Positions 1,433 through 9,733 of a DNA stretch of 64,000 bases are shown here, piece after piece. The stretch spans positions 124,001 through 188,000 of the forward strand of contig NZ_JABACI010000005.1 in NCBI RefSeq assembly GCF_012524205.1. The letters run 5' to 3'. The stretch comes from Microbacterium salsuginis. GTDB taxonomy: Bacteria > Actinomycetota > Actinomycetes > Actinomycetales > Microbacteriaceae. A program made the translations under genes and the position numbers. The first letter of the stretch is position 1. Every line of letters starts with the position of its first letter. Under the pieces are notes generated by a model. It saw nothing but the letters and a program-made list of their open reading frames with translations. It made no database searches and had not been told where the DNA came from.

Positions 1433-3502
1433 TCACGCGTCGATGCGGTCCCGCGCGAGGCGGTCGCTGGAGTCGACGATGAACTCTTTGCGGGGCGCGA
1501 CGTCGTTGCCCATGAGCAGTTCGAAGACGGATGCCGCAGCCTCGGCATCCTGCATCCGCACGCGTCGCAGCGTACGGCCGGCACGATCCATCGTGGTGGT
1601 CGCGAGCTGGTCGGCATCCATCTCGCCGAGGCCCTTGTACCGCTGCACCGGCTCCTGCCAGCGCTTGCCGGACTTGGTGAGCTTGGTGAGCAACGCGTGC
1701 AGCTCCTGCTCCGAGTACGTGTAGATCGTCTCGTTCGGCTTGGTGCCCGGGTTCATCACCACCACGCGATGCAGCGGCGGGACGGCCGCGTAGACGCGGC
1801 CGTCGTCGATCAGGGGGCGCATGTAGCGGAAGAACAGCGTGAGAAGGAGCGTCCGGATGTGCGCGCCGTCGACATCGGCGTCGCTCATCAGGATGATCTT
1901 GCCGTAGCGGGCCGTGTCGAGGTCGAACGATCGGCCCGATCCAGCACCGATCACCTGGATGATCGCGGCGCACTCGGCGTTGGAGAGCATGTCGCTGACG
2001 GACGCCTTCTGCACGTTGAGGATCTTGCCCCGGATGGGCAGCAGCGCCTGGTACTCGCTGTTGCGCGCCAGCTTGGCGGTGCCGAGGGCGGAGTCGCCCT
2101 CGACGATGAACAGCTCGGACTCCGCCACGTCCGTCGACCGGCAGTCGGCCAGCTTCGCCGGCAGCGACGAGGACTCGAGCGCGTTCTTGCGTCGCTGGGT
2201 CTCCTTATGGGTGCGCGCGGAGATGCGCGCCTTCATCTCGGAGACCACCTTGTCCAGCAGCAGCGCGGTCTGCGCCTTGTCGTCGCGCTTGGGAGATGTG
2301 AACCGGGCCGTGAGCTCGCGGCTGACGACGTTCGTGACGATCTGGCGGACGGCCGGTGTGCCGAGGACCTCCTTGGTCTGGCCCTCGAACTGAGGCTCGG
2401 GCAGACGCACCGTCAGCACCGCGGTGAGCCCCGCGAGGATGTCGTCCTTCTCCAGCTTGTCTGTGCCCACCTTCAGGCGGCGTGCGTTCTGCTCGACCTG
2501 CGTGCGCAGCACCTTCATCAGCGCCTGCTCGAAGCCGGACTGGTGGGTGCCCCCCTTGGGCGTCGCGATGATGTTGACGAAGGACCGCGTGACCGTCTCG
2601 TAGCCGGTGCCCCAGCGCACCGCGACGTCGACCTGGCACTCGCGCTCGATCTCGGTGGGCACCATCGCACCCGAGGCCTGCAGCACCGGCACCGTCTCGG
2701 TGAAGGTTCCGGAGCCGGTCAGTCGCCATGTGTCGGTGATGGCGCTGTCGGGAGCGAGGAACTCGGTGAACTCCGAGATGCCGCCGTCGAAGCGGAAGCT
2801 CGTCTCGACGGGCTCCTCGCCGCGCTCATCGCTGATGACGATCTCGAGCCCGGGTACGAGGAACGCGGTCTGGCGGGCTCGCTGCTCGAGCTCCTGCACG
2901 TTGAATGCGGCGTCCTTGGTGAAGATCTGCGGGTCGGCCCAGTAGCGGATGCGCGTGCCGGTGACGCCGCGGGCGGCCTTGCCGACGACCCGGAGCTCGG
3001 AGCTCTTCTCGAAGGGTGTGAAGGCGGAGCTCGGGCTGCCGTTCGCGAAGATGCCGGGCTCGCCGCGATGGAACGACATTCCCCAGGTCTTGCCCCCGCG
3101 GTCGACCTCGACGTCCAGCCGCTCGGACAGGGCGTTGACCACGGAGGCGCCGACACCGTGGAGCCCGCCGGACGCGGCGTACGAGCCGCCGCCGAACTTG
3201 CCGCCCGCGTGGAGCTTCGTGAACACGACCTCCACACCGGAGAGGCCCGTGCGCGGCTCGATGTCCACCGGGATGCCACGGGCGCGGTCGCGGACTTCGA
3301 CGCTGCCGTCGGCGTGGAGGACGACGTCGATCCGCGTGCCGAAGCCGCCCAGGGCCTCGTCGACGGCGTTGTCGATGATCTCCCACAGGCAGTGCATGAG
3401 CCCGCGCGAGTCCGTCGATCCGATGTACATGCCCGGGCGCTTGCGGACCGCCTCGAGCCCCTCGAGCACCTGCAGATGATGGGCGGAGTACTCGGAGGTC
3501 AC
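1433..3502 (-). CDS. parE: DNA topoisomerase IV subunit B (ParE-type ATPase)
   Basis: This 689-residue protein is full length for the family. The N-terminal GHKL ATPase domain shows EAVRKRPGMYIGS, the nucleotide-binding ENA/DNAVDEAL helix and the glycine-rich GGLHGVGASVVNAL lid. A transducer domain follows. The TOPRIM domain has LFIVEGDSALG and the acidic DADVDGAH motif with LPIRGKILN between them. AKLARNSEYQA fits ParE better than GyrB. The ALG where AGG is usual in EGDSAGG is a small deviation. It hydrolyses ATP to drive strand passage by the ParC/ParE tetramer. The genes converge tail to tail rather than forming an operon, so they must be expressed from separate promoters. The start ATG gives the normal family N-terminus. 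Confidence 0.93.
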   Translation of the reverse strand: MTSEYSAHHLQVLEGLEAVRKRPGMYIGSTDSRGLMHCLWEIIDNAVDEALGGFGTRIDVVLHADGSVEVRDRARGIPVDIEPRTGLSGVEVVFTKLHAGGKFGGGSYAASGGLHGVGASVVNALSERLDVEVDRGGKTWGMSFHRGEPGIFANGSPSSAFTPFEKSSELRVVGKAARGVTGTRIRYWADPQIFTKDAAFNVQELEQRARQTAFLVPGLEIVISDERGEEPVETSFRFDGGISEFTEFLAPDSAITDTWRLTGSGTFTETVPVLQASGAMVPTEIERECQVDVAVRWGTGYETVTRSFVNIIATPKGGTHQSGFEQALMKVLRTQVEQNARRLKVGTDKLEKDDILAGLTAVLTVRLPEPQFEGQTKEVLGTPAVRQIVTNVVSRELTARFTSPKRDDKAQTALLLDKVVSEMKARISARTHKETQRRKNALESSSLPAKLADCRSTDVAESELFIVEGDSALGTAKLARNSEYQALLPIRGKILNVQKASVSDMLSNAECAAIIQVIGAGSGRSFDLDTARYGKIILMSDADVDGAHIRTLLLTLFFRYMRPLIDDGRVYAAVPPLHRVVVMNPGTKPNETIYTYSEQELHALLTKLTKSGKRWQEPVQRYKGLGEMDADQLATTTMDRAGRTLRRVRMQDAEAAASVFELLMGNDVAPRKEFIVDSSDRLARDRIDA

Positions 3503-3670: not shown

Positions 3671-3895
3671 ATGAACACGCTATCGACAACCCCAGAGCAG
3701 GGCGCCCTCCTCGAGTACCGTCTCACCGCGGCGGATCGCTGCGATTCGTGTGGTGCACAGGCGTACATCGCCGCGGAGGTCAACGGCAGCGAACTGCTGT
3801 TCTGCGCGCACCACGGACGCAAGTACGAAGAGAAGCTGCGCTCGATCGCCACGTCGTGGCACGACGAGACTGCTCGCCTGACCGAATCGGTCTGA
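3671..3895 (+). CDS. Small zinc-ribbon-like protein of the DUF7455 type
   Basis: A 74-residue protein starts at ATG 3671, chosen because a strong ribosome binding site (GAGGAGG, 3657-3663) sits seven bases upstream. The frame is open further upstream without such a signal. It has C-x2-C (CDSCGAQA) and, about 25 residues later, C-x2-H (FCAHHGRKY), which suggests one zinc-binding knuckle. The rest is a compact hydrophilic domain. Similar small proteins are widespread in actinobacteria, often near topoisomerase or sigma factor genes. I know of no established function. It stands alone between divergent parE and the convergent racemase gene, six bases from the latter's stop. Confidence 0.8.
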   Translation: MNTLSTTPEQGALLEYRLTAADRCDSCGAQAYIAAEVNGSELLFCAHHGRKYEEKLRSIATSWHDETARLTESV

Positions 3896-3901
3896 CGTCC
3901 G

Positions 3902-4951
3902 TCAGGCCCCGTCGTACAGCCGGGGCACGAGCGGCGAGACCCTGACGGCGATCTCCTCGCCGATGGTGCCGATCAGTTCGGCGAGATCGGTCGCCGTCGG
4001 CTCGTCCTGCAGACCCGGCCCGAAGACGGTCACGATGTCGCCGACGGCCGCACCCGGCCAGGCCTCGACCACCGAGTCCGATTCCCCGACGACGCGCAGA
4101 GCGCGTCGGCCCGCCGGTGTCCCGACCGTCGCGCGTCCTCGGAGCGACGAGGGGATCCCGTCCAGCGCGCCGATCCCGATCCGCACGTCGTCGGCATCGA
4201 CGGCCACCACGTCGGCCTGGAGTCGAGCGGCGGGCACGAGCCCGAGCTTCGCGGCCGACGGACCGCCGGCGGAGCGGATGCCATAGCAGAATGCCCCGAC
4301 GCGGACCATGTCGTAGCGGAACTCGGGGCGCGCGAACGAGGCCGCGCTGGCGGCGAGATGACGCTTCGTAGGCCGCAGACCCGCGGAGGCCGCTTCGCGC
4401 AGCGCCGCCTCGTAGACGGCTCGAGCCTGGTCGTCTTCGGCGTCGGACGCCTCGGCGATGTGGCTCCACACGCCCACCACCTCGATCGCCCCCTCGGCCT
4501 CGAGTTCGGCGGCCCGCGCCACGAACGCGGGCCAGGCCTCCGGACGCACGCCGTTGCGGTGCAGTCCCGTGTCGATCTTCAGGTGCACGCGTGCCGTCGC
4601 GCGGGCTTCACGCGCGGCATCCGCGAGTTCCTCGAGCAGCTCCGCGTCGCCGACGCCCATGTCGAGCCGGGCGGCGAGGGCCGCATCGAGGTCGGCCCGA
4701 GAGGCCGCGATCCACGCGAAGATGCGGGCATCATCGCCCGCCGTGGCGCGCACGGCGCCGCCGGTGCGCACGTCGAACGCCCCGAACCATTCGACCCCCG
4801 AGGCCTGGGCCCGACGCACGACCGGCTCCAGCCCGTGCCCGTAGGCGTCGTCCTTCACGACGAGCATGAGATCCGCCGGGCTCACGGTCGCGCGCACCCG
4901 GGCGATGTTCGCCGCGAGTGCCGCGAGGTCGACGTGGAGTCGTGCCGTCAT
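3902..4951 (-). CDS. Alanine-racemase-like PLP barrel protein lacking the catalytic tyrosine
   Basis: 349 residues. The N-terminal TIM barrel is well preserved: VVKDDAYGHG at 31-40 carries the PLP-binding lysine (K33), KIDTGLHRNG at 125-134 is the PLP-phenol-contacting arginine segment, WSHIAEA follows near 162, and MVRVGAFCYG near 215-224 matches the end of the barrel. The C-terminal beta-domain is degenerate: where alanine racemases have IGYADG with the catalytic tyrosine, this protein has IGIGALDG (258-265) with Ala262 at the Tyr position, and the GR-x-MDQ motif is lost (VVGESDSV). In the known enzyme that tyrosine acts in the active site of the other subunit. The gene overlaps by ATGA with an upstream gene whose product supplies exactly this tyrosine, so the two are probably halves of one enzyme (inference). 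The substrate may be alanine or another amino acid. Confidence 0.85.
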   Translation of the reverse strand: MTARLHVDLAALAANIARVRATVSPADLMLVVKDDAYGHGLEPVVRRAQASGVEWFGAFDVRTGGAVRATAGDDARIFAWIAASRADLDAALAARLDMGVGDAELLEELADAAREARATARVHLKIDTGLHRNGVRPEAWPAFVARAAELEAEGAIEVVGVWSHIAEASDAEDDQARAVYEAALREAASAGLRPTKRHLAASAASFARPEFRYDMVRVGAFCYGIRSAGGPSAAKLGLVPAARLQADVVAVDADDVRIGIGALDGIPSSLRGRATVGTPAGRRALRVVGESDSVVEAWPGAAVGDIVTVFGPGLQDEPTATDLAELIGTIGEEIAVRVSPLVPRLYDGA

Positions 4952-5670
4952 GGCGCCACCTGACGGACAGCGCGGAGCCCCGCGGTCGTGATGAGCTCCA
5001 TGACGGACATTGCCGTCACCCGCGCCCAATCGCGGACCGAGGGCTCGCCGCGGGCCGGGTCGCCGAAGAACACCACCCCATCTCCTCGCCGGACCGCGGC
5101 ATCCCGGATCTCCACGACGCACACGTCCATCGCGACGCGCCCGATGATCGGATGCCGCCGCGCGCCGATGGCGACCTCGACCGCGCCGCCGAGCGCGCGC
5201 ACGATCCCCTGCGCGTACCCGCCGGTGACAAGCGCCACGCGGGTGTCTGCGGGAGCGCGATAGGCGTAGCCGTACGAGACGCCCTCGCCGGCGCGCAGAT
5301 CCTTGACCGACAGCACGGTTCCCGTCATCCGCATCGCGGGCTGCGCGGGGCGGGCATCCGGCAGGCCGAAGAGCGTCTCGGGCGCGATGGCCGCGCGGCG
5401 CTGCGCGATCGGAGGTTCGGCGCCGGCAGCGGGTGTGCCCGGGTCTCCCGCGGCGCTGAAGCCCTCGGCCGCGAGCACCTCGGCCACGAGGTCCGCGCCA
5501 TGACCCCAGGCATCCGCCGCCATGACCGCAGGAGAGAAGAGACGGATGCCTTCGCTCCGAGCTGCCCGCGCGTTCGCAGCAAGCGCCGCGCGCGAGATCC
5601 ACGCCACCGGCGAGCTGAGAGGTGCGGCTCCCTCCGCCCACACGTCGGGGCCAGGGTCGGGGGAACTCAC
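4948..5670 (-). CDS. Truncated alanine racemase paralogue supplying the C-terminal domain with catalytic tyrosine
   Basis: 240 residues, far shorter than the usual 360-380. Residues 20-70 resemble the first strands and helices of the racemase barrel, but the PLP-lysine motif reads VMAADAWGHG (49-58), with alanine (A51) in place of lysine. The middle of the barrel is missing. From about residue 110 the complete C-terminal domain follows: GEGVSYGYAY, then GGYAQG with Tyr152 at the catalytic position, then PIIGRVAMDVCVV matching GRxxMDQ. It therefore cannot bind PLP by itself but has what the downstream protein lacks. Translation of the downstream gene is coupled through an ATGA overlap, implying near-equal amounts. 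The GTG start lies six bases after a TAGTCT -10 element, so the mRNA is probably leaderless. Confidence 0.82.
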   Translation of the reverse strand: MSSPDPGPDVWAEGAAPLSSPVAWISRAALAANARAARSEGIRLFSPAVMAADAWGHGADLVAEVLAAEGFSAAGDPGTPAAGAEPPIAQRRAAIAPETLFGLPDARPAQPAMRMTGTVLSVKDLRAGEGVSYGYAYRAPADTRVALVTGGYAQGIVRALGGAVEVAIGARRHPIIGRVAMDVCVVEIRDAAVRRGDGVVFFGDPARGEPSVRDWARVTAMSVMELITTAGLRAVRQVAP

Positions 5671-5714: not shown

Positions 5715-6737
5715 ATGCCCTCTCACGGCCTCGGCCTCGCGCCCCGCCTTCGCTACCTCGCCGGCCGAGCCCGCCGCATCGACGTGGGGTCGGTGTTCGC
5801 CCGCGCCAGAGAGAGCGCGCGCGATCACGGCCGCTGGATGCCCGCGGTGCTCGTCGACATGCTCTGGTCGGCGGGCTTCCGCCAGGTGGGCTTCCAGGAC
5901 TACGTCGACTACGACTTCGCGATCCTCAACCGGGCCGAGCGCGAGACCTACATGACGCATCCGGTGTCGAATCAGCTGTCGCAGAAGTACGACCATCCCG
6001 ACTTCCGTCACATCTTCCAGGACAAGATCGAGTTCGACCGGGTCTTCAGCGACTTCCTGCGCCGCGACTGGATGGTCGTCGAACCGGGCAACCGGGATGC
6101 CGTGCGCGCGTTCGTCGAGGGGCACGGCACCGTGGTCACGAAGGAGCCGGTGGGCCAGGCAGGAACGGGTGTGCACCGCTATCGCGCATCAGAGGTGGAG
6201 GACTGGGATGCTTTCCACCGCGGCTTGCTCGAGCGCGGCGAGCTGCTGATCGAAGAGGTGATCCGCCAGCACGCGGACCTCGCGGCTGTCTGCCCCGGAA
6301 CGGTCAACACCACCCGCGTGACGGCGTTCTTCGACGGCCGGCAGACGCACATCCTCGCCATCGCCCAGAAGTTCGGTCGTGGCGCGGTGAGCGATCAGAT
6401 GACGTTCGGCGGCTTCTACACGATGCTCGACGACGATGGAAAGGCCGTCGGCCCCGGCTACGACTCGCACGGCCACGTCCATGAGCGGCACCCCGACAGC
6501 GACTTCGTCATCGCAGACTTCCAGCTGCCGATGATCGAGCAGGTGCGCACGTTCGTCGACGAGGTGGCGCGCGTCGTGCCGCAAGTGCAGTACGTCGGAT
6601 GGGACATCGTGGTCACCCCCGACGGCCCCGTCCTCGTGGAGGGCAATTGGGGCGCCGGCGTCTACGAGAACAAGCCCAGCGTCACCGGCATCCGCACCGG
6701 GCACAAGCCTCGCTACCGCGCCGCGATCGGCTTCTGA
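5715..6737 (+). CDS. ATP-grasp protein, sugar-transfer-associated (ATPgrasp_ST-like)
   Basis: 340 residues starting at ATG 5715, with GGAG at 5706-5709. The N-terminal 100 residues are helical and specific to this group. The ATP-grasp fold follows: VVTKEPVGQAGTGVHRY near 130-150 resembles the nucleotide-binding strand and glycine loop, GELLIEEVIRQH is the adenine-binding hinge, and the C-terminal VLVEGNWGAG holds the E-x-N metal ligands. ATP-grasp enzymes activate a carboxylate as acyl-phosphate and join it to an amine, thiol or hydroxyl. The sugar-transfer-associated subfamily (PF14397-like) has no well-defined substrate. Sharing a bidirectional promoter with an unusual alanine-racemase-like pair suggests, as inference only, that it handles an amino acid or peptide for the cell envelope. 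Confidence 0.75.
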   Translation: MPSHGLGLAPRLRYLAGRARRIDVGSVFARARESARDHGRWMPAVLVDMLWSAGFRQVGFQDYVDYDFAILNRAERETYMTHPVSNQLSQKYDHPDFRHIFQDKIEFDRVFSDFLRRDWMVVEPGNRDAVRAFVEGHGTVVTKEPVGQAGTGVHRYRASEVEDWDAFHRGLLERGELLIEEVIRQHADLAAVCPGTVNTTRVTAFFDGRQTHILAIAQKFGRGAVSDQMTFGGFYTMLDDDGKAVGPGYDSHGHVHERHPDSDFVIADFQLPMIEQVRTFVDEVARVVPQVQYVGWDIVVTPDGPVLVEGNWGAGVYENKPSVTGIRTGHKPRYRAAIGF

Positions 6738-6768: not shown

Positions 6769-7494
6769 ATGCCTCGACCGCATGTTGTGATCTACAACGC
6801 CGTCAGCATCGACGGCCGCATCGCCGGGTACGAGAACGACCCGCGCGTCTACTACCGCTACGGGTTCGAGATCCCGGCCGACGTCGTGCTGATGGGCAGT
6901 GCGACCGCGCTCGCCTTCGGGCCGGAAGAGCCCGAGCGCGATCAGTTCGTGGAATTGCGCGCGCCGGAACGCCTTCCGATCGTGGAGGGCTTCGAATCGC
7001 TCGTGACCGAGCCGCGCCCGCTTCTCGTGGTGCCCGATTCGGCCGGGCGGGTGCGGAACTGGATTCACGCCCTCGCCCAGCCGTGGTATCGCGACATCCT
7101 CGTGTTGACATCCGCCGCGACACCGGCCGAGTACCGCGACTACCTCGGGCGGCGAGGAATCCGTACGTGGGTCGTGGGAGAGGGCCGCGTTGACCTCGCT
7201 CGGGCACTGGAGCGCCTGCACGCCGACGAGGGGGCGCGCCATGTCCGCACAGACAGCGGCGGCCGGCTCAACGGCGCGCTCATCGCCGCAGGCCTCGCCG
7301 ATGAACTCGTCCTCATGGTCGAGCCCGTCGTCTCAGGTGCGCCGGGCGGCCCGGCGGTGATCCGTCTCCCGGGCGATCTCGATCCGCGAACCATCGCCTT
7401 CGAGCGAACCGGCGTGGAAGCACTTGACGGCGGCGAGGTGGTCGTGCGTTACGCGCTGACGGCGCGGACGACGCCGAGCGGGGTGGATTCGTGA
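6769..7494 (+). CDS. Dihydrofolate reductase family protein (RibD C-terminal type)
   Basis: 241 residues with the fold of the RibD reductase domain. The N-terminus VVIYNAVSIDGRIAG is the typical 'x-S-x-DG' opening strand. ADVVLMGSATALAF corresponds to the R/MGRxT nucleotide-binding segment, VVGEGRVDLARALERL and VRTDSGGRLNGALIAAGLADEL to the GGxxLxxxLLxxGLVDE signature, and LMVEPVVSG to the E-x-x-P-x-x-x-G end motif. NAD(P)H-dependent reductase activity is expected. No deaminase domain or riboflavin genes accompany it, so it is probably not the riboflavin enzyme itself. The last 46 bases overlap the convergent CofE-like gene. The start is set by the -10 element six bases upstream. Confidence 0.78.
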   Translation: MPRPHVVIYNAVSIDGRIAGYENDPRVYYRYGFEIPADVVLMGSATALAFGPEEPERDQFVELRAPERLPIVEGFESLVTEPRPLLVVPDSAGRVRNWIHALAQPWYRDILVLTSAATPAEYRDYLGRRGIRTWVVGEGRVDLARALERLHADEGARHVRTDSGGRLNGALIAAGLADELVLMVEPVVSGAPGGPAVIRLPGDLDPRTIAFERTGVEALDGGEVVVRYALTARTTPSGVDS

Positions 7495-8150
7495 CCCTGA
7501 CCCAGCGGGTTGTCCTTCAGGATCGCCACCAGGCGCTTCTCCCCCGCCCTGTCGAGCGTCGAGCCCAGGATGTTGCCGCCGAGGTCGTTGATGTCGACCA
7601 CGGCGACCTCGGGGACGTCGCCGAGCAGGCTCTTCAAGTGAGCCGCGACCTCGCGCGGGCGCTCCGGGCCGAGGACGACGGCCTTGTTGTAGGGCGGGAT
7701 GGTGCCGCTGGTCGGCCCGTCGATCGCGCGGGCCTTGTCGCCGGCGATGCGGTAGAAGTCACCCTTGCGTCCGAACGCCTTCGTGACGGCGGACACCGCC
7801 GCCGCGAACAGGATGCGGATCGTGCCGCACTCGCGCAGGGCCATCTCCATGGTCTCGGGCATGCCGAGGCCGATGCCGTACGGGGTACGAGTGACGTACT
7901 TGGAGAGGAACAGCGCGAGCCGGCGGGGCTTGATCTCCTCGACGAGGTAGGAGCGCCCCTGCGTGATCGCCACGATCTTCTCGGTGACGAACAGGAGGTC
8001 GCCCGGAAGGACGATCTCCTCGGCGTACTCCCGCACGAAGGCGTCCAGGTCGTCGCCCGGCATCACGACCCGCGTACGGATCGGGATGCGGGCGTACGAC
8101 GAGCCCTCGATCGAGACGGTGAGCGCCTTGCCGGCGTTCGCCTCACTCAC
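7449..8150 (-). CDS. Coenzyme F420-0:L-glutamate ligase-like protein (CofE family)
   Basis: 233 residues resembling the CofE fold. [17 protein letters not shown] and [19 protein letters not shown] match the N-terminal beta-hairpin and the GDx-x-V-x-x-K-x-x-S region of F420 gamma-glutamyl ligases. [19 protein letters not shown] and [16 protein letters not shown] match later conserved parts, with acidic residues that bind metals in CofE. CofE adds glutamate to coenzyme F420-0 using GTP; stand-alone homologues may modify other substrates. No other F420 gene is in the window. The GTG start overlaps the sigma factor stop by four bases (GTGA), so it is translated in direct continuation of the principal sigma factor gene. 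Its 3' end overlaps the convergent reductase gene. Confidence 0.72.
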
Positions 8151-9502
8151 TCGAGGTAGTCCCGCAGCGACTGCGATCGTGACGGATGCCGGAGCTTGGC
8201 CATGGTCTTGGACTCGATCTGGCGGATCCGCTCACGGGTCACACCGAACGTGTCGCCGATCTGGTCGAGCGTCTTGGGCTGACCGTCGCCGAGCCCGAAG
8301 CGCATGCGGATGACACCCGCTTCGCGCTCCGAGAGCGAGTCCAGGAGCGACTCGAGCTGGCGCTGCAGCATCGTGAAGCCCACCGCGTCGGCCGGGACGA
8401 CAGCCTCGGTGTCCTCGATGAGATCACCGAACTCGCTGTCGCCGTCCTCACCGAGAGGCGTGTGCAGCGAGATCGGCTCGCGGCCGTACTTCTGCACCTC
8501 GATGACCTTCTCGGGGGTCATGTCGAGCTCGCGGCTCAGCTCCTCGGGAGTGGGCTCGCGCCCCAGGTCCTGCAGCATCTGCCGCTGCACGCGGGCCAGC
8601 TTGTTGATGACCTCGACCATGTGCACCGGGATGCGGATCGTGCGAGCCTGGTCTGCCATGGCCCGCGTGATCGCCTGGCGGATCCACCACGTCGCGTACG
8701 TCGAGAACTTGAAGCCCTTGGTGTAGTCGAACTTCTCGACGGCGCGGATCAGTCCGAGGTTGCCCTCCTGGATCAAGTCCAGGAACTGCATGCCGCGACC
8801 CGTGTACCGCTTGGCGAGCGAGACGACGAGGCGCAGGTTCGCACCGAGCAGGTGGCTCTTGGCACGCTGGCCGTCACGCGCCACCCACTGCAGGTCCAGC
8901 CCCAGCTGGGACGACTTCTCGGCCGCCGACATGTGCGACAGCTTCTCTTCGGCGAACAGGCCGGCCTCGATGCGCATCGCGAGCTCGACCTCTTCGGCCG
9001 CGTTCAGCAGTGGCACCTTTCCGATCTGCTTGAGGTAGTCCTTGACCGGGTCGGCGGTCGCACCGGTGATCTGGGTCGAGTAGACAGGAACGTCATCCTC
9101 GTCGCTCGACGAGATGACGATCGCACCGGTCGGGAGAGGCTCCGTGAACGCCGGCTTGGTGCTCTCCTCGTCCTCGTCCTCGTCCTCGGTCGCGCCGGCG
9201 GCATCGCCCGCGGCCTTCGCATCGCCCTTCGCGGGCTGCTCGGCGTCATCGTCCGCGGTGACCTCGGCGACGTCGTCGGTCGCCTCGAGTTCGACGTCCT
9301 CGTCGATCTCTTCGACGTCGTCCTCGAACTCGTCGTCTGTCTTCGCGGCGCGCTTGGAAGCGGTCTTGGAGGTCGCCTTCCCCTTGGCGGCCGCCTTCTT
9401 GGCGGGGGCCTTCGCCGCTGCCTTGGTCGCAACGGGCGTCGTCTCCTCCGCCTCGGTGTCCTTCGCGGCCGCTCGGGCCTTGGTGTTCGTGCCTGGAGTC
9501 AC
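8147..9502 (-). CDS. sigA: Principal RNA polymerase sigma factor (RpoD/HrdB/SigA type)
   Basis: 451 residues from GTG 9502, preceded by GAAAGG six bases upstream; the frame is open to an earlier ATG at 9580 that lacks a ribosome binding site. The first 130 residues are a low-complexity Ala/Lys- then Asp/Glu-rich tail typical of actinobacterial principal sigma factors. Region 1.2 ([16 protein letters not shown]), region 2 ([19 protein letters not shown], then [13 protein letters not shown]) with -10 recognition residues, region 3 and region 4 ([22 protein letters not shown]) are all intact, the last being the -35-binding helix-turn-helix. It directs RNA polymerase to housekeeping promoters. 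The downstream CofE-like gene overlaps by GTGA. Confidence 0.95.
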
Positions 9503-9733
9503 GTTTCGCCTTTCACCGGTGGGCGTGCGCCTCACGCCCCGGTCGATTTCGGACACTAGTAAGACCCTTGTCAAGTCCACGTTTCGATGAGAAGCCTCAC
9601 CGAGACGGTTGACAACGGGTCAGGGCATCCAGTATCTCATACTTGCCGTGCGCCGCCAGCATCACCCCTGCCGACATGGCGCACCTCTGTTTCTGCAAGG
9701 AGAGAACGCCCGCCGGGGTCGTGGCATTCCGGA
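9503..9733. promoter_or_regulatory. Upstream region of sigA
   Basis: 231 bases without a convincing gene between sigA and the stop of the PAC2 gene, both on the minus strand. On the minus strand a TTGACA lies at 9571-9576 but no good -10 sits 16-18 bases from it. On the plus strand TTGACA (9609-9614) is followed after 18 bases by TATCTC, which would transcribe antisense into the PAC2 gene; nothing else supports it. Several AT-rich stretches stand out in the GC-rich background, consistent with a regulated promoter region. Confidence 0.35.

Follow-up and report, generated by a model that had tools for sequence, protein, structure and literature searches.

A putative heterodimeric racemase of the alanine racemase fold with a divided active site in Microbacteriaceae

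Alanine racemase is known as a homodimer with two equal active sites, in which each chain provides both a PLP-binding lysine and a catalytic tyrosine. The window analyzed here, a stretch of 64,000 nucleotides from Microbacterium salsuginis, harbors at positions 3902-5670 two overlapping genes, A and B, each of which resembles only a part of this enzyme. The initial annotation had predicted an obligate heterodimer that arose by duplication and partitioning. Its coordinates were right, and both ORFs exist with the ATGA overlap listed in Table 1. Along the minus strand, B comes first and A lies downstream.

Table 1. Features of the racemase-like gene pair and its surroundings in the window
Feature	Coordinates	Strand	Remarks
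Type II topoisomerase B subunit (gyrB/parE type)	1433..3502	(-)	Flanking gene, marks conserved locus
Small DUF7455 protein	3671-3895	(+)	Between topoisomerase gene and A
Gene A (putative barrel subunit)	3902..4951	(-)	349 aa; PLP lysine K33, Glu332 at Tyr354 site, Tyr265 loop deleted
Overlap ATGA, B stop/A start	4948..4951	(-)	
Gene B (putative C-terminal-domain subunit)	4948..5670	(-)	240 aa, GTG start; Tyr133, Ala51 at lysine site, most of barrel missing
ATP-grasp protein (ATPgrasp_ST), divergent from B	5715..6737	(+)	PF14397, 110.9 bits against cut-off of 31.4; proposed ligase module
RibD C-terminal-domain reductase	6769-7494	(+)	Between ATP-grasp and CofE-like genes; its end overlaps the CofE-like end on the other strand
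CofE-like protein (F420_ligase domain)	7449..8150	(-)	PF01996, 37.7 bits against cut-off of 25; proposed ligase module
Presumed principal-type sigma factor	8147..9580	(-)	Flanking gene, marks conserved locus

The Pfam scan of A revealed the Ala_racemase_N domain (PF01168) in full (E 4.7e-52, 177.3 bits against a gathering cut-off of 24.1) and the later part of Ala_racemase_C (PF00842, profile positions 37-127, 29.1 bits against a cut-off of 25). B matched PF00842 in full (E 1.1e-30, 106.2 bits), and the same scan matched no N-terminal domain model in B. Both proteins scored below the 168-bit cut-off of the NCBIfam equivalog model TIGR00492 (135.9 bits for A and 103.9 for B). Alignment with solved structures matched A to Streptomyces and Mycobacterium alanine racemases across the barrel, and B across the C-terminal domain. 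The predicted structure of B (mean pLDDT 88.3, pTM 0.85) superposed on Mycobacterium tuberculosis alanine racemase (8b8h_A) over 218 residues with a Z score of 24.1 and an rmsd of 2.1; apart from the middle of the barrel, the Alr fold is predicted to be retained in B.

Residue numbers and roles (K39, Tyr265, Tyr284, Tyr354, etc.) follow Bacillus alanine racemase. The PLP lysine corresponds to K33 of A (VVKDDAYGHG, codon 4855-4853) and the equivalent site in B is Ala51 (VMAADAWGHG, codon 5520-5518), in agreement with the annotation, which had the downstream gene keeping the barrel and the lysine and the upstream gene losing the lysine and most of the barrel. When aligned with ordinary enzymes from this family, A shows K39, Y43, K129, R136, H166, and R219, but the Tyr265 stretch is deleted, Tyr284 and Met312-Asp313 are altered, and Tyr354 is replaced by Glu (codon 3958-3956). 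B lacks the lysine and ∼150 residues of the barrel and retains Tyr265 (GVSYG), Tyr284 (GGYAQG), and Met-Asp (RVAMD), the last of which had been recognized at the outset along with the C-terminal domain. Tyr133 of B (GEGVSYGYAY, codon 5274-5272) aligns to GEGVSYGHTW of the M. tuberculosis enzyme. Hence, the catalytic tyrosine sits in GVSYG and not in GGYAQG, to which it had been assigned and which is the Tyr284 site. Likewise, the loss of the tyrosine from the downstream gene was correctly called, but the Ala-for-Tyr exchange in IGIGALDG through which it was explained falls at the Tyr284 site. Alanine racemase carries Lys and Tyr in one chain; here, Lys is present in A only and Tyr in B only.

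A therefore shares with alanine racemase (Alr, EC 5.1.1.1; TIGR00492) the fold, the PLP-lysine motif, and the barrel residues, and B shares Tyr265, Tyr284, and Met-Asp. The pair differs from Alr in that the Lys and Tyr roles reside in different genes and in that A has Glu or Asp in place of Tyr354. By its presumed way of working, the pair is regarded here as a racemase of the Alr fold, related to alanine racemase but not an alanine racemase proper. Very likely, the A and B proteins assemble into an obligate heterodimer, a PLP racemase of fold-type III with a single composite active site. A would give the barrel, the PLP lysine, and Arg136/His166/Arg219, and B, through its C-terminal domain, would give the opposing base Tyr265 together with Tyr284 and Met312-Asp313. 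We are highly confident that the two together would catalyze racemization, and neither half should work alone. The heterodimer reading draws on four kinds of relatives described below: racemase genes of full length in tandem, B genes of full length whose lysine is lost, fusions of B with A, and a single-chain enzyme of genus g74 split in the same manner (9/9 chains).

The pair is widespread in Microbacteriaceae, a family of bacteria from soil and plants. Of 398 genomes of the family, 197 were matched by the A profile at E<=1e-104, as were 49 of 85 genera. These counts are an upper bound, because this threshold is also passed by full-length proteins related to A and by certain ordinary enzymes (L127, L133, genus g80); on residue checking, A was present in 30 of the 85 sampled genera. 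Within Microbacterium, A was found in 131 of 159 genomes (118 of the 143 of good quality), and one of the 28 A-negative genomes, G482, carries a divergent pair (L253). Ten of 296 genomes of the class passed E 1e-108, comprising seven Microbacterium and three g80 genomes; G240 (L133, g80) proved on checking to hold an ordinary racemase, and G142 and G280 (g80) are counted by score alone.

The residue survey covered 200 racemase units, all distinct, at the loci retrieved. K39 without Tyr265 was seen in 140 units, in which site 354 was Glu (85), Asp (43), or Tyr (10, all from g74), two units being cut short. The survey defined A by an acid at 354, so that the acid is no independent count there; outside g74, every complete unit with K39 but without Tyr265 had Glu or Asp at this site. 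The five first-shell residues of the barrel, K39, Y43, R136, H166, and R219, were present in all 128 distinct A proteins and K129 in 126, and Tyr265 was present in none (0/128). B lay directly upstream on the same strand in 123 cases and was fused to A in two, and the remaining three A genes were at contig ends. The losses are thus reciprocal, as proposed earlier, and conserved. The arrangement is no coincidence, since B adjoined A or was fused to it in 125/125 testable cases. A 4-base overlap (ATGA, GTGA, or TTGA) was found in 108 of the 123 B-A pairs. Rough dN/dS estimates over seven relatives were 0.16-0.31 for A and 0.22-0.41 for trimmed B, suggesting that both genes are constrained.

These data bear on three other explanations of the pair. 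The first sees in the two ORFs an assembly error or what is left of a gene pair that has decayed, and indeed neither ORF encodes the whole canonical protein. The recurrence of the same architecture in 30 of the 85 sampled genera leaves this practically no likelihood, and it was rejected on the occurrence of A in 131 of 159 Microbacterium genomes and on dN/dS values well below 1. The second holds that A and/or B associate not with each other but with the cell's ordinary alanine racemase. An ordinary racemase of the same fold, with all of the residues named above, is encoded in the same genome, in line with the earlier guess that the D-Ala enzyme lies elsewhere; however, A and B were adjacent or fused wherever testable, usually with a 4-base overlap, and such pairing is highly improbable. 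Pairing of A with B is supported indirectly by the fusions (L068 and L136) and by the g74 chains.

According to the third explanation, A would work alone without the tyrosine in some other PLP reaction, with B as a regulatory or chaperone-like pseudoenzyme. PLP enzymes of fold-type III, the fold of A, include decarboxylases. Dead paralogues that activate a partner are also known: trypanosomatid deoxyhypusine synthase is reported to have an impaired and an inactive paralogue that are active only together (PMC3663545). Its fold is unrelated, and its inactive paralogue is described there as an allosteric activator, whereas the A and B chains would each hold one catalytic base. B retains exactly the partner-side residues that A has lost, Ser-Tyr-Gly of the catalytic loop being invariant in 16/16 aligned B proteins, and the g74 single chain arrived at this split on its own. 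The pseudoenzyme explanation is hence improbable, and the composite-site heterodimer is retained in what follows.

The pair would have originated by tandem duplication of an alanine racemase gene followed by complementary loss. In B, the lysine would have gone first and the greater part of the barrel later; A would have lost the loop that carries the tyrosine. Along the A lineage, Tyr354 would have given way to an acid, probably ahead of the loop loss. Stages consistent with the duplication and partitioning put forward in the initial annotation were found in related genera. Two adjacent full-length copies, both with K39 and Tyr265, occur in g8, g12, g27, g32, g35, g41, and g72. In tandem full-length pairs (14 distinct), site 354 was Asp or Glu in the downstream copy only and Tyr in the upstream copy. 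B was full length or nearly so in g58 (L048-L050), g9 (L103), and g85 (L120), with the lysine changed to Asp, Thr, or Ser, and the partner A at these loci was without the tyrosine loop. B was truncated in most pairs, and B-A fusions occurred in two genomes, G234 (L068) and G243 (L136). Relatives in which one gene stands by itself with both Lys and Tyr had been named beforehand as evidence against the heterodimer. No lone A or B was seen at the testable A loci, but genes with both residues do exist as the adjacent full-length pairs of other genera, and these are read as the ancestral state.

In a tree of 93 units, A and the full-length copies with an acid at 354 formed one group (SH-aLRT 99) apart from the ordinary enzymes, and inside this group, A was not one clade. 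A single A clade, i.e., one loss of the tyrosine, was rejected by a barrel-only AU test (p-AU 0.0146). Hence, at least two losses of the tyrosine loop are probable in the acid-354 lineage, and the split itself seems to have occurred there at least twice, unless gene conversion between neighbors restored the loop in some lineages, which could mimic repeated loss.

The tandem full-length racemases of g32 (L069-L072 and L077) showed Asn at the Asp313 site in the upstream copy and Lys at the K129 site in neither copy. These changes indicate that the copies were already diverging before the loss of Lys39 or Tyr265.

A further, apparently separate origin of the same split was found in genus g74, the second racemase of which (L086-L095) is one chain of 612-677 aa. 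The first half keeps K39 and Tyr354 and has no Tyr265 loop; the second half has Tyr265, Tyr284, and Met-Asp, with no lysine and little of the barrel. This residue pattern was seen in 9/9 chains, and in the tenth genome (L090), only the first half was found. The A-halves of g74 formed a clade of their own (support 100) that grouped with ordinary enzymes (support 93). In two genomes, G136 and G389, the single chain was the only racemase match at E<=1e-20, the G389 assembly being ∼90% complete. This case is the strongest argument, taken from sequence, that complementary halves may make a working racemase. AlphaFold2 prediction of one g74 chain from a 9-row alignment gave a pTM of 0.83 and a mean pLDDT of 79.1 (63.7-79.1 over five models); residues 1-366 of the model matched Alr chains with a Z score of 36, a match that is silent on the docking of the second half. 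Genus g74 also contains a further full-length racemase-like protein (L096-L099) with Ala at 354 and Ser at the K129 site, which is distant in the tree and is possibly a racemase of another amino acid.

No earlier report of a heterodimeric alanine racemase was found in the open-access literature. A textbook homodimer and antibiotic target appears to have turned into an obligate heterodimer with one site per dimer. The intermediate stages in related genera and the separate single-chain repeat make the much-discussed course from duplication through complementary loss to an enforced heteromer directly testable. If true, duplicated dimers with an active site at the interface would be driven into heterodimers as if by a ratchet, repeatedly.

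The substrate was considered from the residue at site 354. Tyr354 of alanine-specific enzymes is Glu in the A protein of the window and Glu (85) or Asp (43) across the A set, and a basic side chain could be bound by this acid. In group B peptidoglycan, the cross-link runs through the α-carboxylate of D-Glu, the group on which MurT acts. The acid, this cross-link, and the occurrence of MurT led to the proposal that A/B makes a D-diamino acid that a neighboring ligase module attaches. The substrate would most likely be one of the basic diamino acids Orn, Dab, and Lys, destined for the type B2 bridge, and the module, either MurT with an altered GatD or an ATP-grasp/CofE-like module, would join it to the D-Glu α-carboxylate. 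Ornithine or lysine is named in PMC11319209. The explanation as a whole, i.e., a heterodimeric racemase, its origin, and a probable diamino substrate, is considered likely; for the narrower claim that A/B supplies, by racemization, the D-diamino acid found in type B2 peptidoglycan, the chances appear even. Slightly below even stands the combination of a D-diamino-acid racemase, a neighboring D-Glu α-carboxylate ligase, and repeated evolution of the split through an interface-site ratchet.

Site 354 governs alanine specificity, and lysine-preferring racemases lack the tyrosine (PMC3485190). The lysine-preferring Lyr and the broad-specificity Bar belong to the same superfamily and have Thr391 and Ala393, respectively, at the Tyr354-type site (PMC3485190). 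Unlike A/B, they are described as dimers with both catalytic residues in each chain, and the acid found at this site in A is shown for neither of them in the sections available (PMC3485190). Beyond the superfamily, what A/B shares with Lyr and Bar is only the lack of the Tyr354-type residue.

An alternative is that A/B is a second alanine (or serine) racemase, likewise heterodimeric, with no diamino-acid link and with the ligases incidental. The family is that of alanine racemase, the g74 single-chain enzyme with Tyr354 probably makes D-Ala, and the ligase module is also found without A/B. This alternative is nevertheless doubtful, given the ordinary alanine racemase in the same genome and the replacement of Tyr354 by Glu or Asp throughout A; moreover, A/B is absent from about one-sixth of the good Microbacterium genomes and hence is not essential for D-Ala there. 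In the diamino-acid reading, the Microbacterium genomes without A would come from bacteria with L-Lys walls, for which no D-diamino acid is required, and the one-sixth of good genomes without A fits this idea. The record of Microbacterium galbinum, a D-Orn species, has the pair (L179). The wall of Microbacterium enclense is reported to contain L-Lys (PMC10757982); a record under this name, strain ZYFD042 (L149), has the pair, which counts against the diamino link. If the substrate reading is true, the locus offers candidates for the genes that supply the D-amino acid of group B peptidoglycan and encode its cross-bridge ligase, for which no assigning paper was found in the open-access literature, and the pair with its ligase-like neighbors may explain how the unusual cell walls of these bacteria are built.

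At most loci, A/B is flanked by a gyrB/parE-type gene on one side and a sigma factor gene on the other; the window protein at 8147..9580 is presumed from its sequence to be of the principal type. Among the 141 loci with a marker match, MurT-like and/or GatD-like genes were found at 61, ATP-grasp and/or CofE-like genes at 73, both at none, and neither at seven, some genomes being counted two times, once under a G handle and once through a named record; one locus with both MurT and ATP-grasp came up later (L239, G018). In a set of 86 genomes, with each genus represented once and one additional genome, MurT was present in 65, ATP-grasp in 14, both in three, and neither in 10, two of the three genomes with both resting on weak partial MurT matches.

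The MurT- and GatD-like genes, found at many loci and not in the window, lie side by side and match the Staphylococcus aureus and Streptococcus pneumoniae proteins of lipid II isoglutaminyl synthase (MurT/GatD). They differ from that system in the GatD-like protein, which at the locus lacks the catalytic glutaminase cysteine in 73/73 distinct sequences (e.g., L048:10223-10969 and L043:8447-9202). The cysteine was present in 2/2 GatD-like proteins located elsewhere (G003 and G014), and the catalytic histidine column was His in 37/75. One GatD and one MurT scanned against NCBIfam reached 40.5 of 450 and 99.3 of 800 bits, below the cut-offs, and no report on MurT/GatD in Microbacterium was found in the open-access literature. 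A relative of the CofE-like protein (L039:7221-7916) scored 24.2 bits, below the 180.65-bit cut-off of TIGR01916 (CofE); for the window protein, the result is from the Pfam scan only. Queries with the ATP-grasp and CofE-like proteins against solved chains gave no match at E 0.01 and 0.1.

The module also occurs without A/B in G021, G045, and G063, three genomes that have no pair at this locus and gave no A match at the threshold of E<=1e-104. Of 19 Microbacterium genomes scored as A-less, 18 keep the ATP-grasp gene, and the 19th is G482 with the divergent pair. A strict one-to-one link between racemase and ligase was therefore rejected, and the occurrence of the module without A/B renders the substrate link indirect. 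At seven A-less loci around an ATP-grasp gene beside a parE-type gene, A/B was simply missing. Four of these seven Microbacterium loci (L249, L250, L251, and L255) showed tandem ATP-grasp genes between the parE-type and CofE-like genes, the place that A/B occupies in relatives; such a tandem could fit a two-residue bridge.
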